This document shows, in pieces, positions 6,506 through 31,100 of a stretch of DNA of 64,000 bases. The notes under the pieces were generated by a model, which saw only the letters and a list, made by a program, of their open reading frames with translations, ran no database searches and was not told the origin of the DNA. How positions within the stretch are numbered: position 1 is the stretch's first letter; each line of letters opens with the position of its first letter. The position numbers were made by a program, and so were the translations under genes. Location: positions 39,584-103,583 of IMG/VR virus record IMGVR_UViG_3300013132_003882, one strand, 5' to 3'. This DNA is from a virus.

Positions 6506-6513
6506 TATAAATA
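6506..6513 (+). promoter_or_regulatory. late promoter-like TATAAATA
   Basis: Exact T4 late consensus between the stop at 6499 and the terminator hairpin; the hairpin would then lie in the 5' leader of the ClpP-like gene. Confidence 0.5.
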
Positions 6514-8696: not shown

Positions 8697-9290
8697 ATGC
8701 CAAATCTAGTGCCCATAGTTTTAGAACAAACTGCCAAAGGCGAACGCAGTTACGACATCTACAGCCGACTGCTCAAAGATCGTGTGATCATGCTGGATAC
8801 CGAAGTAAGCGAACATTCGGCCAGTTTGATTGTGGCACAGATGCTGTTTTTGGAAAGAGAAAATCCTGACAAAGACATCAGCCTATACATCAACTCACCC
8901 GGCGGATCAGTCACAGCCGGCATGGCCATCTACGACACCATGCAGTTCATAAAGCCGGGTGTGCATACCATTGTCATGGGGCAGGCCTGCTCCATGGGAT
9001 CATTGCTGGCACAAGCAGGTGCTCCGGGCCGGCGTTTCATATTGCCCAATGCCAGACACATGATACACCAACCATCGGGTGGCGCAAGAGGACAGGCCAC
9101 TGACATGCTGATTCAAGTGGAAGAGATTTTGGCCATGAAGCGTAATTTGACAGGTATATACGTTAAGCACAATTCAGCAGGCCGGACATTTGAACAACTC
9201 ACAGCCGACATGGAACGTGACAACTTCATGAGCGCACAGGAAGCAGTTGACTATGGTCTTGCTGACAAAATTGTAGAAAACCGTACATGA
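8697..9290 (+). CDS. clpP: ATP-dependent Clp protease proteolytic subunit
   Basis: 197 residues, canonical Clp[34 protein letters not shown], catalytic Ser99 (GQACSMG), His124 (HMIHQPSGG) and Asp175 (MERDNF). No propeptide is apparent. It would need a ClpX/ClpA partner, probably the host's, as none is seen here. Start chosen for the AAGGAG at good spacing. Followed by ATGA overlap with a radical-SAM gene. Confidence 0.93.
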
Positions 9291-10555
9291 CATTAAAAGA
9301 CTCATTTTGCCCCAGCCCTTGGTTTCACATGCGAATCAACAACAGTGGGCACTATGAGTATTGTCGTTGGGCCGATAAAGCCCACAGAACCACTGGCTCT
9401 AACATAAGTGATACAACTCCTGCTGAATTTTTTAATCAGAATCTGATTCCTATTCGCCAACAGTTATTAAATGGCGAACGCCCAACTGGATGTGCTGAAT
9501 GCTATCAAATGGAAGCACACGACAAGATAAGCGGTCGACAAAAACAACTGCTGAAAATAGGTGTGCAGTTATGGGAGTTTGACAAGATGTTGGCCAGTTC
9601 TCCCTGGATGCCTGTGTTTGTCAATCACATGCCGCAGATGCCACAAGACTGGCAAATTGATCTAGGCAACTATTGCAATTCGGCCTGTGTGTTTTGCCAT
9701 CCAAGTTTTAGTTCACGACTGGCCACAGAATGGAAACAACTTGGTTTCATTGACAAAACACCACCGGCAAATTGGTGTAATGACCCTGTATATCTACAAA
9801 TTTTTATTGATACACTGGTCAAAAGTCCGCATATACAGTATCTACATTTCATTGGCGGAGAAACTTTGATCACTCCGGCATTTAAAAAAATACTTAAAGC
9901 ATTGATTGATGCAGGCTTGAACAAAACTGCTACCATTGGATTTACCACAAATCTTATTAGTTGGGACAATGACACAATATCACTGTTGACACAATTTGTT
10001 GGAGTAAATCTTGGTGTTAGTATAGAAGCATTTGATTCTATTAACGAATACGTAAGATGGCCAGCAAAACAACAGCAAGTTATTAGCATACTATCACAGT
10101 GGGTTGCGCTTAGTCAACAACACAATTGGTTGATGCAAATTAGAACCACTCCTACTATACTTACAATTCACAAATTACTCACAGTTTATGACTATGCCTG
10201 GGAACATGGTATTGTGGTGGAAAGTTGCAATTTTTTAACCGAACCGTCTTATCTGCGACTAGCAGTGTTGCCACAAAAATATCGTCAACCTATAATAGAT
10301 CAGATGCAGGCTTGGATTGATCAACGGCCTAACAATACAAAAACTGTGGTAAACATTAGACACCCAGATTTTGTATACGCACAAATTGCACAAGATTTGC
10401 AAAGTTATGTGAATTATTTAAAAACTGAAACAGATCAAAGCGATCAGTTGCCGGTGTTGATACAGTTTTTAAAACGCCTTGAACTCAATAGAAAAAACAA
10501 TATCTTAGACCATGTACCACAATATGAAGAACTTTTTAGATCTGCTGGCTACTGA
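9287..10555 (+). CDS. radical SAM protein (twitch/SPASM-like), copy 1
   Basis: 422 residues. CNSACVFC at about residues 126-133 is the CxxxCxxC [4Fe-4S]/SAM motif, followed by FIGGETL (GGE motif) and SIEAFDS. The N-terminal region carries extra Cys ([22 protein letters not shown]) that may bind an auxiliary cluster. The gene is visibly A+T-rich compared with neighbours, suggesting transfer. Substrate unknown; peptide or glycan modification is possible. Confidence 0.8.
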
Positions 10556-18333: not shown

Positions 18334-18529
18334 TTGCGGTGCCCAACAGGCCTTGGCCCTCAAGCATCAGTTGGATCTTGATGGGCTCATAGTGAACCAA
18401 GACTACACCTGGCGCTACGAAAAGCCAGTGTATGACAACTTTGCCTGGACAGAAAGTGAAGTCAACCATGTGACATTTACTTTTCGTAATCCTGCACTGG
18501 CCACGTTCTATAAACTCAAATGGTCATAA
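18305..18529 (+). CDS. small paralogous-family protein
   Basis: 74 residues from ATG 18305 ([12 protein letters not shown]...), ending [19 protein letters not shown], the family motif: beta strand, (D/N)P or acidic turn, helix, F-x-L-x-W. Function unknown. Confidence 0.55.
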
Positions 18530-18537
18530 CTAATAAT

Positions 18538-19470
18538 ATGACAATCACAAGCCAAGACAATTTTAAACACAAAATCCACAACAATAAAATGATTGAGCCT
18601 AGAGACTGGATGCCCGATCAGTATCGGCGTACTCTAATTAGACAAATAAGTCAACATGCACACAGTGAGGTTGTGGGCATGTTGCCCGAAGGAGACTGGA
18701 TAGCACGGGCACCCAGTCTAAAACGCAAAGAAGTGTTGTTGGCCAAGGTACAGGATGAAGGCGGACACGGTCTGTATCTTTATTCAGCCGCAGAAACTCT
18801 GGGTGCCAGCAGAGATAGTTTGATTCAAGATCTTCATGCAGGCCTGGCCAAGTACTCAAGTATATTCAACTATCCTACCCTTACCTGGGCAGACGTGGGT
18901 GTGATAGGTTGGTTGGTGGATGGTGCTGCCATCATGAATCAAATACCCTTGTGCCGTTGCAGTTATGGACCTTATGCTAGAGCCATGATTCGCATTTGCA
19001 AGGAAGAAAGTTTTCATCAACGTCAAGGCTATGACTTGTTGCTGACCATGATGACAGGCACTGACGAACAACGTGACATGGTACAAGATGCTGTGGACCG
19101 TTGGTGGTGGAAAACTCTAACCATGTTTGGTCCACCTGATGCAGAGAGCACCAACAGTGAACAAGGCATGGCCTGGGGCATCAAACGTCATACCAACGAT
19201 GACTTACGACAAAAGTTTGTAGATGCCACTGTGCCGCAGGCTGATTATCTTGGTGTCAAATTACCAGATCCAGATCTCAAATGGAATGACACTCGTAATC
19301 ACTATGATTTTGGTGAAATAGACTGGGCAGAATTTTGGCAAAATGTCAACGGCAACGGCCCTTGCAATGTTGAACGCCTTGAGGCTCGCAGCCAAGCCTA
19401 TGAATCAGGTGCATGGGTGCGTGACGCAGCCATGGCCTATGCTGAAAAACAAAAAGAAAAACAACAATAA
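18538..19470 (+). CDS. paaA: phenylacetyl-CoA epoxidase subunit A (PaaA)
   Basis: 310 residues, alignable by eye along its whole length with bacterial PaaA, the diiron catalytic subunit of 1,2-phenylacetyl-CoA epoxidase. Diiron ligands are present: Glu44 (HSEVVG), Glu74/His77 (QDEGGHG), Asp128 and Glu157/His160 (EESFH). Start at ATG 18538 aligns with the family start (MT...IEPRDWMP). The partner subunits PaaB, C and E are absent from the window. Base composition resembles neighbouring phage genes, suggesting it is not a fresh import. It may boost host aromatic catabolism or use another substrate. Confidence 0.9.
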
Positions 19471-27358: not shown

Positions 27359-27791
27359 ATATCCAACCATAACCAGCGGCCTGGGCACAGACACCTTTAC
27401 TGTGAGCACTGGTACAAGTTATCCAAATTATGGTGCTGTGCCTACCACAGGCACCGACTGCGGCTATGTGTACACTTTGCCCAACACAGTACCTTGGATC
27501 TCCAGTGGTGGCAATGGTACCAGCATCAGTGATCCTTCTTTGAAAGTCAATCAAGGTGGAAAGATCCAAATGCAGGGACAAAATGCTGACATTGAGATCA
27601 ATGGCAAAAGCATGAAGGCCTGGATGGAACAGGTGGAAGAGAGATTGAACATCTTGACTGTCAACCCTGACATGGAAAAAGACTGGGATGACCTACGCAG
27701 ACTGGGCGAACGCTACAAAAAGTTAGAGAAAAAGTGCCGAGAAAAAGCCCGCATGTGGGCAGAGTTAAAGAAAGTACAGATCAAACCATGA
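27318..27791 (+). CDS. conserved phage protein (GTG start)
   Basis: 157 residues. Start GTG 27318 with GGAGAG upstream. The C-terminal part (QNADIEINGKSMKAWMEQVEERLNIL, then a Lys/Glu coiled coil) matches a family found across T4-like cyanophages, function unknown. The Gly/Ser/Thr-rich N-terminus suggests a surface or structural role. ATGA overlap with nadE. Confidence 0.65.
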   Translation, partial: TVSDRYPIFKILDEYPTITSGLGTDTFTVSTGTSYPNYGAVPTTGTDCGYVYTLPNTVPWISSGGNGTSISDPSLKVNQGGKIQMQGQNADIEINGKSMKAWMEQVEERLNILTVNPDMEKDWDDLRRLGERYKKLEKKCREKARMWAELKKVQIKP

Positions 27792-28612
27792 CACCTAAAC
27801 AACGCATCAAACACATTTCAAAATGGATCCAAGACTATGCCCGACGAGCAGGTGTAGATACCTTGGTAGTGGGCATTTCAGGCGGGATTGACAGCTCGGT
27901 TGTCAGTGCCTTGTGCGCCGAAACAGGACTCCGAACCATTGTGGTACAGATGCCCATTCGTCAAAACCGGAAGCTGGACAATCTAAGTTCAGCACAGGCT
28001 GGCTGGTTGCTGGAACAATTCCCCCACAATGTCACACACATGAGCATGGACTTGACCACAGTGTTTTCTGCATTTGAAAAGAAAGTGCAACCATTCTGTG
28101 CACCAGAACAAGAACCCAACGAGCGTGAACAACTGGCGTTTGCCAACTCACGTGCTAGATTGCGCATGATGACCCTGTATCAAATTGCACAGAGCCATGG
28201 TGGCATTGTGGTGGGCACAGGCAACAAGGTGGAAGATTTTGGTGTGGGATTTTTCACCAAGTACGGCGACGGTGGCGTGGATATTTCACCCATTGGTGAC
28301 TGCATGAAAACTGATGTGTGGGCCATGGGACAGGAACTGGGCTTGCTGGATGCCATAATTGATGCCTCGCCCACAGACGGACTCTGGGCTGATGACCGCA
28401 ACGACGAAGATCAACTGGGCATGTCCTACCCTGACCTTGAACGCATGATGAGATTGGACCTGTTGAAAGGGGCCAAGATCGTGGATTCAAACATGCCTGG
28501 CAGTGCCAAACTCAGTGCTGATGATCGTAAAAAACTAAAACGTTATAAAGAACTACGTGCTCAAAATCAGCACAAGATGACTCCTGTCCCTGTTTGCATG
28601 ATGCCTCGTTAA
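27788..28612 (+). CDS. nadE: NH3-dependent NAD synthetase
   Basis: 274 residues with the ATP-pyrophosphatase P-loop SGGIDSS at 31-37, VVGTGNKVEDFGVGFFTKYGDGGVD and the C-terminal SAKLSADDRKKLKRYKEL. No glutaminase domain, so ammonia is the nitrogen donor. It makes NAD+ from nicotinate adenine dinucleotide, likely to sustain redox metabolism during infection. Confidence 0.92.
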   Translation: MTPKQRIKHISKWIQDYARRAGVDTLVVGISGGIDSSVVSALCAETGLRTIVVQMPIRQNRKLDNLSSAQAGWLLEQFPHNVTHMSMDLTTVFSAFEKKVQPFCAPEQEPNEREQLAFANSRARLRMMTLYQIAQSHGGIVVGTGNKVEDFGVGFFTKYGDGGVDISPIGDCMKTDVWAMGQELGLLDAIIDASPTDGLWADDRNDEDQLGMSYPDLERMMRLDLLKGAKIVDSNMPGSAKLSADDRKKLKRYKELRAQNQHKMTPVPVCMMPR

Positions 28613-28743
28613 CTGCTATGTTAATGACAAAAACACACCATTTTGACAGTTTTTTGACAGCCTTACAGCCAGATAAAATAAGTAAAAGTGGTGGTAGAAC
28701 AACACATTGCAATCAAATAGGATCTTCTACTGCTGATTGGTAC

Positions 28744-28970
28744 CTTGTCCAATTGATTAAAACAAGTACCCGTAGCACTGACAAGGGTTTGTCCAAGCCC
28801 AAATCAGTGTTCGAAAGAGACTCTCGGAAAGTCTCTTCGTTGACAACTAGAATTGGACAGGCTCATTTCCCAGGACGCGAGCTTGTCCCAAACGAGTATG
28901 CCAAGGAGGCCCGAGGTCTATCTATGCTCATCTCAACTGAACTTTTGTCAACGTGATCTACTCGGGTCTC
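28744..28970 (+). ncRNA. candidate structured RNA C with alternative pairings
   Basis: Lies in a 395-nt gap between nadE and the hydrolase gene. Hairpins: CACTGA/TCAGTG (28776-28809), AAGAGACT/AGTCTCTT (28815-28837), GGACAGGCTC/GAGCTTGTCC (28855-28888). They are enclosed in part by GTTGACAA/TTGTCAAC (28839-28846 with 28945-28952) and ACCC...GTAG/CTAC...GGGT (about 28768-28775 with 28958-28967). TGTCCAATT (28746-28754) can instead capture AATTGGACA (28851-28859). Alternative: an ORF 28618-28956 with no recognised family. Confidence 0.55.
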
Positions 28971-29007
28971 CGCGTACAGCCACGTATTGGCGTTTAAAGG
29001 AAATCGA

Positions 29008-29583
29008 ATGAAGTTTGTGAAAAATCAACCCAACGTGTTAGCAACATGGGCTGGAACAATTATCAAAAGTGCGGCCCTATTTGTAGTGGCATTTGCAGTG
29101 TGGACAGTATGTGAATCAAGACTGAAAACTCTGAGCAATGATCGAGCAGCCAACATGGCCGGCTACGTGTCAGCTGCCGACCGATTGAAACAACTCAACT
29201 GCTTGACTCAGAACATATACTGGGAAGCTGCCTCAGAGCCTTTTGAAGGCAAAGTGGCAGTGGCCCAGGTCACATTAAATAGAGTAGAGTCAGGTAAATT
29301 TGCCAACACAGTATGCGGTGTGGTCTATCAAAAGAATGTGTTCTACGAACGAGTGGTGTGTCAGTTTAGTTGGTTCTGTGAATCCACACACCGAACTAGA
29401 CCGGTACATCGACCCATGTGGCAAGAAAGCGAACTAGTGGCCAAAAAAGTCCTATTGGAAGACTTCCGATTGCCCGGCATGAAAAATGCCTTGTACTATC
29501 ACGCCGACTATGTCAACCCCAACTGGCGCTTGCCCCGAATTGACCAAATTGGTCGTCACATCTTTTATGGAGAAAAAATATGA
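29008..29583 (+). CDS. SleB-type cell wall hydrolase
   Basis: 191 residues; N-terminal membrane anchor (about 15-40), then NIYWEAASEPFEGKVAVAQVTLNRV...TVCGVVYQ...CQFSW, the Hydrolase_2 (SleB/CwlJ) signature with its catalytic Glu. It would cleave peptidoglycan glycan strands in the periplasm. AAAGGA ribosome site. ATGA overlap with a small membrane protein gene. Confidence 0.82.
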   Translation: MKFVKNQPNVLATWAGTIIKSAALFVVAFAVWTVCESRLKTLSNDRAANMAGYVSAADRLKQLNCLTQNIYWEAASEPFEGKVAVAQVTLNRVESGKFANTVCGVVYQKNVFYERVVCQFSWFCESTHRTRPVHRPMWQESELVAKKVLLEDFRLPGMKNALYYHADYVNPNWRLPRIDQIGRHIFYGEKI

Positions 29584-29891
29584 GCACTTGGCCCTTTAAC
29601 CTGCAGACCATTCGTGATTTTTTGAACAATCACCTGCACCGGATTTCAGCAGATACCCTGGGCTGGTTGGCAGCCATTGTGTTGCACTGTGCCACCATTC
29701 CCAGTTTGTTGGCCCTGATGACGGGCTTGAGTGATCATGTGCCCAGCTTGGATGTGGTGGCGTTTCTTTGGTCCGGCTTGGTACTGTTGTTCCTACGTGC
29801 TATTGTGCTGAAAGACACCTTGAACATTATCACCATTGGGGTGGGTTTTATAGTGCAAGCAGGACTCATGGCCCTGATACTGTTTAGATAA
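29580..29891 (+). CDS. multi-pass membrane protein, holin candidate
   Basis: 103 residues, three to four membrane segments (LGWLAAIVLHCATIPSLLALMTG...). Conserved-looking in T4-like cyanophages. Co-translated with a wall hydrolase, which makes a role in its access to the wall plausible; a 3TM holin also exists at 63810. Confidence 0.55.
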   Translation: MSTWPFNLQTIRDFLNNHLHRISADTLGWLAAIVLHCATIPSLLALMTGLSDHVPSLDVVAFLWSGLVLLFLRAIVLKDTLNIITIGVGFIVQAGLMALILFR

Positions 29892-29897
29892 GACACT

Positions 29898-31100
29898 GTG
29901 GTCAACAAGTACACTCATATCTCTCAAGCAGATTATGAAACAGTGGCCGGCCCAGATTGGCCACCTTTTGATTTCTTTCAATTGCATAAAAATGTGCCTG
30001 AGTTTGTGTACAAAGAGATCAACAACATGCTTAGGCCGGTTGAAGGATTTTCACATCCTACATTTTGTGTGTTGCCATTCTATGCTATAGAGTATCCGGA
30101 TAACACCCCATGTTGTTTGCTATCTGGAGTAGAATCCGTAAAAGCAATACAACAACAAATGTTATCGGGGCAACGTCCAGAGTCTTGCAAAAAATGTTGG
30201 AAATTGGAAGATGCTGGTTTAAAAAGTGATAGACTTATTAAAAATGAAACACTGGATCATTTCAGCAATGTCGATCTTGAACAATTGATAACTCAAAGTC
30301 AACTAGGCAAAAATAAAATCGTTCATTACAAGATTGATACAAGCAATACTTGTAACGCTGCCTGTATGACTTGTGGCAGTGATTCAAGTAATACCTGGGG
30401 CAAACTACAGAAAAAAAATAACTTGCCCGCAAGGAAAAATTGGAAAATATTGCCCAATCAAACAACAGATTGGATTGATTATGCTCACGCAAAATCTATA
30501 TTGTTTAGAGGTGGCGAACCTTTTTTAAGTGATACTAATTTTTATATACTTGAACAATTAATCAAGCATGACAACACTGATTGTTTTGTAAGTTTTGTAA
30601 CCAATGGCAGTTTTTCTTTGTCTCGACGTCAAAAAGAAATCCTGGCAAAATTAAAAAACTTGCATTTTTGTTTTAGCATCGATGGCATTGGGCCTGTGTT
30701 TGAATATCTAAGATGGCCGTTGAAATGGACTGATATTGAAAACAACATAGCATGGTGTCAGGCAAACAATGTGAAAGTCAGTGTGAGTTATACCTTGAGC
30801 AATATAAATTTATTGTATCATACAACAACCACTCAATGGTTCCGTGATCATAACATAAACTACTTGGTCAATCCTGTGTATTCCCCGGGTTATTTTCGTC
30901 CTGAATCATTGCCAGCAAAAATCAAACAACAACTGAGGCAACAACACAACATTGATGCTATCAGTCAATGGCTGGCACATTCTCCCAGTGATGACAACTG
31001 GTTTGCAAAGTTTCAAATTGAAATTGCCAAACAAGACCACATGAAAAATATCAGCATGCAAGACTATCTGCCCGAACTTGTAGAACTGTTAAAATGGTAA
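29898..31100 (+). CDS. radical SAM protein (twitch/SPASM-like), copy 3
   Basis: 400 residues from GTG 29898. CNAACMTC is the CxxxCxxC motif, followed by LFRGGEPF and SIDGIGP. N-terminal FCVLPFYAIEY and CCLLSG, with CKKCWKLE, match the architecture of copy 1 (9287). A+T-rich compared with neighbours. Substrate unknown. Confidence 0.8.
   Translation: MVNKYTHISQADYETVAGPDWPPFDFFQLHKNVPEFVYKEINNMLRPVEGFSHPTFCVLPFYAIEYPDNTPCCLLSGVESVKAIQQQMLSGQRPESCKKCWKLEDAGLKSDRLIKNETLDHFSNVDLEQLITQSQLGKNKIVHYKIDTSNTCNAACMTCGSDSSNTWGKLQKKNNLPARKNWKILPNQTTDWIDYAHAKSILFRGGEPFLSDTNFYILEQLIKHDNTDCFVSFVTNGSFSLSRRQKEILAKLKNLHFCFSIDGIGPVFEYLRWPLKWTDIENNIAWCQANNVKVSVSYTLSNINLLYHTTTTQWFRDHNINYLVNPVYSPGYFRPESLPAKIKQQLRQQHNIDAISQWLAHSPSDDNWFAKFQIEIAKQDHMKNISMQDYLPELVELLKW

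Follow-up and report, generated by a model that had tools for sequence, protein, structure and literature searches.

What occupies the 395-nt gap between an NAD synthetase gene and a cell wall hydrolase gene in an uncultured phage, and does it bear on the expression of the hydrolase? The window is the whole 64,000-nt stretch that we analyzed, part of a virus record that is 103,583 bases long, and the genes and RNA elements located in it below are all on its plus strand. The NAD synthetase gene (27734-28612; PF02540, phrog_11189), which also lies 5′ of the lysis cassette in several relatives, ends at 28612, and the ATG of sleB is at 29008. The latter gene (29008-29583; the ORF list gives it as 28987-29583, with a TTG further upstream as its start) encodes a SleB/Hydrolase_2 endolysin (PF07486, E 3.3e-24; endolysin PHROGs). 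It is followed by a gene for a 103-aa hydrophobic protein (29580-29891), a candidate holin-like partner by its position and hydrophobic segments. This protein gave no Pfam or PHROG match, and its gene follows sleB in 48 of 53 loci with the RNA described here and in 75 of 80 sleB loci; we regard it as a candidate new holin-like family.

The first-pass annotation had proposed a structured RNA at 28744-28970, before the hydrolase gene, and the shuffle test, the homologs, and their compensatory changes all bear this out. The 227-nt segment folds at -71.6 kcal/mol (z -3.55) and is more stable than 200/200 dinucleotide shuffles. The element extends beyond this segment, covering ~300 nt (about 28684-28991), and it starts right after a TAAGTA motif and stops 16 nt short of the sleB ATG. 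An RNA on the minus strand was considered and rejected, as its fold is weaker against shuffles (z -2.40 versus -3.55 on the plus strand) and the model matches on that strand are weak mirrors of the P5 palindrome.

Relatives were collected in two ways. A SleB protein search of IMG/VR, from which the best 80 loci were taken, gave two loci that are 87-92% identical to the window across the whole gap and eight others that share parts of the core; the RNA is present in 10 of these 80 best sleB relatives and missing from 70. The second search relied on a P5 hairpin pattern (TCGGAANNNCTCTTCRTTGACAA) that lies wholly inside the RNA and is blind to the neighboring gene. It returned 58 stretches, and together with the SleB-derived loci these make 53 distinct copies on IMG/VR phage contigs, the window included. 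On top of this count, two looser patterns without the loop recovered four further contigs, representing three distinct RNAs with the loop UCGGCA (100-104 bits), and otherwise gave mainly chance matches. No copy was detected by a distant blastn search of 50,697 reference phage records with the window and locus L097 as queries. The sole pattern match in bacterial genomes, on a WOR-3 contig (L139), gave no model match. This RNA family is so far known here from uncultured viruses only. The covariance models of Rfam 15 gave no match in the window RNA at gathering score, and lax thresholds added just three chance-level matches, all 5′ of the RNA. We found no description of it in the literature, in a search that reached few subscription-journal papers and is hence no proof of absence. 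The RNA is a newly recognized family, outside Rfam, with a covariation-supported structure model.

To count compensatory changes, we aligned the copies by sequence alone (MAFFT) and scored the pairs afterwards. The core (A3, 43 sequences) reaches a covariation score of 0.264; shuffling gives 0.142, and slid registers give 0.157 at the most. The 5′ domain is modular: it occurs as type A, to which the window belongs, and type B, and a few members (L085, L096, and L118) are without it. Both types behave as paired RNA, with 94.5% paired versus 28-46% in slid registers for type B (A5, 24 sequences) and a score of 0.462 versus 0.192 shuffled for type A (A6, 14 sequences). For the pseudoknot PK2 (A7, 45 sequences), the score is 0.397, versus 0.157 shuffled and 0.05-0.09 slid, and RNAalifold recovers P5, P6, and P9 unaided. 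As shuffles ignore relatedness, we added a phylogeny-aware null, in which each column was simulated along the tree and compensatory branches were counted per helix. A stricter per-pair test in the manner of R-scape, run with our own script, found just two PK2 pairs significant; the helix-level test came afterwards. Covariation shows that P1, P5, P7, P9, PK1, and PK2 are backed by compensatory change. No compensatory branches were found by the helix test in P6, P8, the type B stem 1 of PK1, or the inner stem of P4. The pairing of P6 and P8 is thus unproven, although both are conserved.

The fold opens with P1 (28693-28698/28726-28731), which is 99% paired and has 3 versus 0.08 and 4 versus 0.45 expected compensatory branches. 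It is followed by PK1 (28736-28766), which like PK2 is an H-type pseudoknot. Its stem 1 (28736-28740/28749-28753) is joined by a compensatory stem 2 (28744-28748/28762-28766; 14 branches versus 1.65 expected in type B and 5 versus 0.58 in type A). The three strong hairpins of the first-pass annotation are real and are all kept in homologs: P4 (28776-28809) covaries moderately, and P5 (28816-28836) and P7 (28855-28888) do so clearly. P4, found in type A members only, consists of an outer stem (28776-28781/28804-28809; 4 versus 0.88) and an inner stem (28785-28790/28795-28800; 0). The P5 stem (28816-28821/28831-28836) is 100% paired, with 5 branches versus 0.17, and carries the loop UCGGAA (28824-28829), whose invariance is in part a consequence of the search pattern. 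P7 (28855-28864/28879-28888) is 61% paired, and 9 of its 10 pairs have changed on both sides (26 versus 5.6). The long-range helix P6 (28838-28845/28946-28953) encloses P7 and P8; it is 94% paired in 43 sequences, has no independent compensatory branches, and shows too little variation to test. P8 (28907-28910/28916-28919) is a small hairpin within the conserved block GAGTATGCCAAGGAGGCCCGAGGTCT (28894-28919), 95% paired, nearly invariant, and free of compensatory branches.

Toward the 3′ end, P9 (28955-28958/28965-28968) reads GYCCA/UGGRC in most members and is 89% paired (6 versus 0.8), and it is ill preserved in the window's own clade. The RNA closes with PK2 (28973-28991), in which stem 1 (28973-28975/28982-28984) has 6 compensatory branches versus 0.65 expected and stem 2 (28979-28981/28989-28991) has 15 versus 3.2. 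A further contact, PK3, is suggestive: CGGA of the P5 loop (28825-28828) may pair with UCCG (28969-28972) just before PK2. The three members with the loop UCGGCA carry GCCG in place of UCCG near the 3′ end; PK3 is otherwise nearly invariant, and A or G also stands at this place in some members whose loop is the usual one.

The mutually exclusive helices that had been proposed for this RNA did not hold up. Two perfect 9-nt complementarities do exist in the window, TGTCCAATT (28746-28754) with AATTGGACA (28851-28859) and CGTTGACAA (28838-28846) with TTGTCAACG (28945-28953), but only the second, which is P6, is kept in homologs. The first occurs, without any variation, in the window and its nearest relatives only, and the best match at this site in other homologs is at about shuffle level. 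In homologs, the upstream strand is part of PK1 and GGACA is part of P7, both with many compensatory changes. By inspection, the ACCCG/CGGGU helix of the minimum-energy fold is also restricted to the window's clade.

How is this RNA placed relative to its neighbors? A SleB-type gene lies directly 3′ of it in 53/53 copies, and distant Hydrolase_2 endolysin loci (L126 and L128) have the RNA as well. The upstream gene varies, with a nadE homolog in just 8 of the 53. The Shine-Dalgarno (SD) sequence of sleB, AAAGGA (28996-29001), follows PK2 after 4 nt and is itself outside any conserved helix. The CCG that precedes PK2 is spaced 25-29 nt from the SD in every one of the 53 copies, mostly exactly 26 nt, and the SD-to-start distance is 10-12 nt, so that a terminator would not fit in front of sleB. 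Upstream of the RNA, the window has a weak promoter-like match, TTGACA-17-AATAAG (28654-28682, plus strand; 10/12 consensus bases, P about 0.10 versus shuffles), and in most relatives a much better sigma-70 promoter, matching 11-12 of the 12 consensus bases, lies further upstream. The TAAGTA element (28679-28684) forms the 5′ border of the RNA, and in 11 relatives without the RNA it sits immediately ahead of the sleB start. This arrangement makes the RNA appear to be an optional module of the 5′ UTR. With respect to TAAGTA as a phage-wide promoter, the window holds six sites, two of them near a gene start. Most members have a conserved block, GTTAATGACAAAAA (28620-28633), 60-70 nt upstream of the RNA, and it is partly kept in RNA-less relatives; the ATG within this block is not conserved. 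Two tandem SleB-type genes lie behind the RNA in L056 (4212-5519, both PF07486) and, judged from the neighborhood, in L092.

Taken with the covariation, these positions make it fairly probable that the RNA is a cis-acting 5′ leader of ~300 nt for a two-gene lysis cassette, one that would most likely lower translation initiation on the endolysin message and hence set the timing of lysis. The leader would fold into P1, PK1, the hairpins P4 and P5, the P6-enclosed domain with P7 and P8, P9, and PK2. For initiation, the 30S subunit has to sit on the stretch in which PK2 ends. That PK2 lies inside this expected 30S stretch, at a nearly fixed distance from the SD, points to a folded leader that most likely lowers initiation. 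Initiation would then stay low until PK2 opens or the upstream domain rearranges, and wall degradation would be delayed although the message can arise from a host-type promoter; a lysis gene behind such a promoter would need a brake. The fold could be opened or stabilized by, for example, a metabolite, a protein of the phage, or a cellular change. The proposal that the RNA is a regulatory leader that gates expression of the wall hydrolase is thus plausible, and there is no sign of the catalytic RNA suggested alongside it, with no Rfam ribozyme or intron match. In favor of a leader, all 53 copies have a sleB neighbor though the search pattern lay wholly inside the RNA. Against it, 70 of the 80 best sleB relatives do without the RNA, so that the cassette works without it; the window's promoter match is weak, the SD is outside the conserved helices, P6 and P8 are without covariation, and the stricter per-pair test singled out just two PK2 pairs.

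Holins and late promoters are the usual explanation for when double-stranded DNA phages lyse their hosts. With a conserved pseudoknotted leader kept at a set distance from the endolysin start by many uncultured large phages, lysis control at the RNA level would become directly testable; the leader also adds an RNA family whose covariation-supported model others can probe. The closest parallel is the leader of T4 gene e, in which early transcripts fold over the initiation region and yield about 100-fold less lysozyme (PMC3014915). There, as here, the gene of a phage lysis enzyme has an RNA structure in front of it, located where translation initiates, and the structure was proposed as a brake on premature lysis (PMC3014915). 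The position directly before the lysis enzyme gene is shared by 53/53 of our copies. However, the T4 structure is a simple helix that sequesters the SD and start and is removed by a late promoter inside the helix (PMC3014915), whereas no such sequestering of the SD or start was seen here: PK2 ends just before the SD, which is part of no conserved helix. The present leader also differs in its length of ~300 nt, its two pseudoknots, its unrelated sequence, and its SleB-type enzyme, and the repression is one that we infer. The leader of T4 gene 32 likewise uses an H-type pseudoknot in a phage mRNA leader for translational control, but with one small pseudoknot that lies 67 nt 5′ of the start and nucleates binding of the gene's own product (PMC3014915). 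PK2, in contrast, ends about 16 nt from the start, within a large fold before a lysis gene.

A more specialized role can be imagined, although we consider it rather unlikely: the RNA could be a dedicated switch, whose conserved core (the UCGGAA loop and the GAGUAUG block) would sense the progress of infection through a protein, a metabolite, or a physical change, open PK2, and free endolysin translation. As in riboswitches, a conserved structured domain occupies the 5′ UTR, and its expression platform lies where a single gene begins. The preQ1 and SAM-II riboswitches also have an H-type pseudoknot near the translation start; they are compact, at tens of nucleotides, and have known ligands. The pseudoknot at the start as a likely expression platform is common to them and to the present leader, which differs in giving no Rfam match and in that a ligand is only hypothetical.

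The same position of the SD could be read in the opposite direction. In a leader that raises the output of lysis protein, the fold would shield the message from decay at its 5′ end or present to the ribosome the SD, which indeed lies just outside PK2 and is unpaired in the conserved model. RNA-less relatives have weak SD-like sequences and TAAGTAAAA right before the start; a better SD may therefore have come with the RNA. We nevertheless hold such a positive role to be unlikely, since PK2 falls within the expected 30S footprint and the complexity and loop conservation seem beyond the needs of a stabilizing 5′ structure.

Alternatively, a stand-alone phage RNA, trans-acting or structural, could lie before the lysis cassette by chance and be processed from its transcript or overlap it. 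The long, highly conserved loops, the strong promoter that the RNA has of its own in most relatives, and a size and complexity like those of stand-alone RNAs would fit. GOLLD, ROOL, and OLE are such stand-alone RNAs, much larger than the present one. They are described as large structured RNAs from comparative genomics, found partly in lakes and phages (PMC12286853). The present RNA differs from them in that it abuts the SD of one gene and has no Rfam match. A downstream gene that is invariable while the upstream gene varies, the fixed SD spacing, and the missing room for a terminator before sleB make this origin quite improbable.

It is very improbable that an RNA able to splice or cleave itself was inserted between promoter region and sleB. 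RNA-less relatives, with TAAGTAAAA directly before the ATG, do resemble an empty site, and the conserved loops and pseudoknots would fit. However, ribozyme and intron families of Rfam gave no match, lax thresholds included; there is no interrupted gene, the RNA being intergenic and sleB intact with its own SD; and this SD is part of the conserved unit, in which its spacing is fixed. A motif resembling a group I intron core, GTTGACAACTAGA, was rejected: it lies mostly within P6 and has no Rfam match. Finally, it is hardly credible that ORF 28594-28956 is a real gene and the pairing incidental: about half of the members have this frame open across the RNA, but in many it is closed early or shifted (1-nt indels break it in L116 and L121), codon-level conservation, which the first-pass annotation had named as evidence against an RNA, was looked for and is absent (variable sites 23/24/18 by codon position versus 70/50/134 in sleB), no Pfam or PHROG family matches it, and compensatory changes, whose absence the first-pass annotation had likewise named as refuting an RNA, are abundant.

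Apart from the cis-acting leader that we favor, the window holds several other features. The heptamer ATAAATA is the most enriched 7-mer 5′ of its ORFs (for example, at 6506, 56313, and 56464), and TATAAATA occurs three times versus 0.84 expected; these sites are possibly T4-type late promoters. Two radical SAM proteins are encoded at 9287-10555 and 29898-31100, and in L056 a weak radical SAM match lies 5′ of the RNA. At 18520-19470, the phage carries a homolog of phenylacetyl-CoA epoxidase subunits (PaaA_PaaC, PF05138, E 8.8e-96), an unusual auxiliary metabolic gene.
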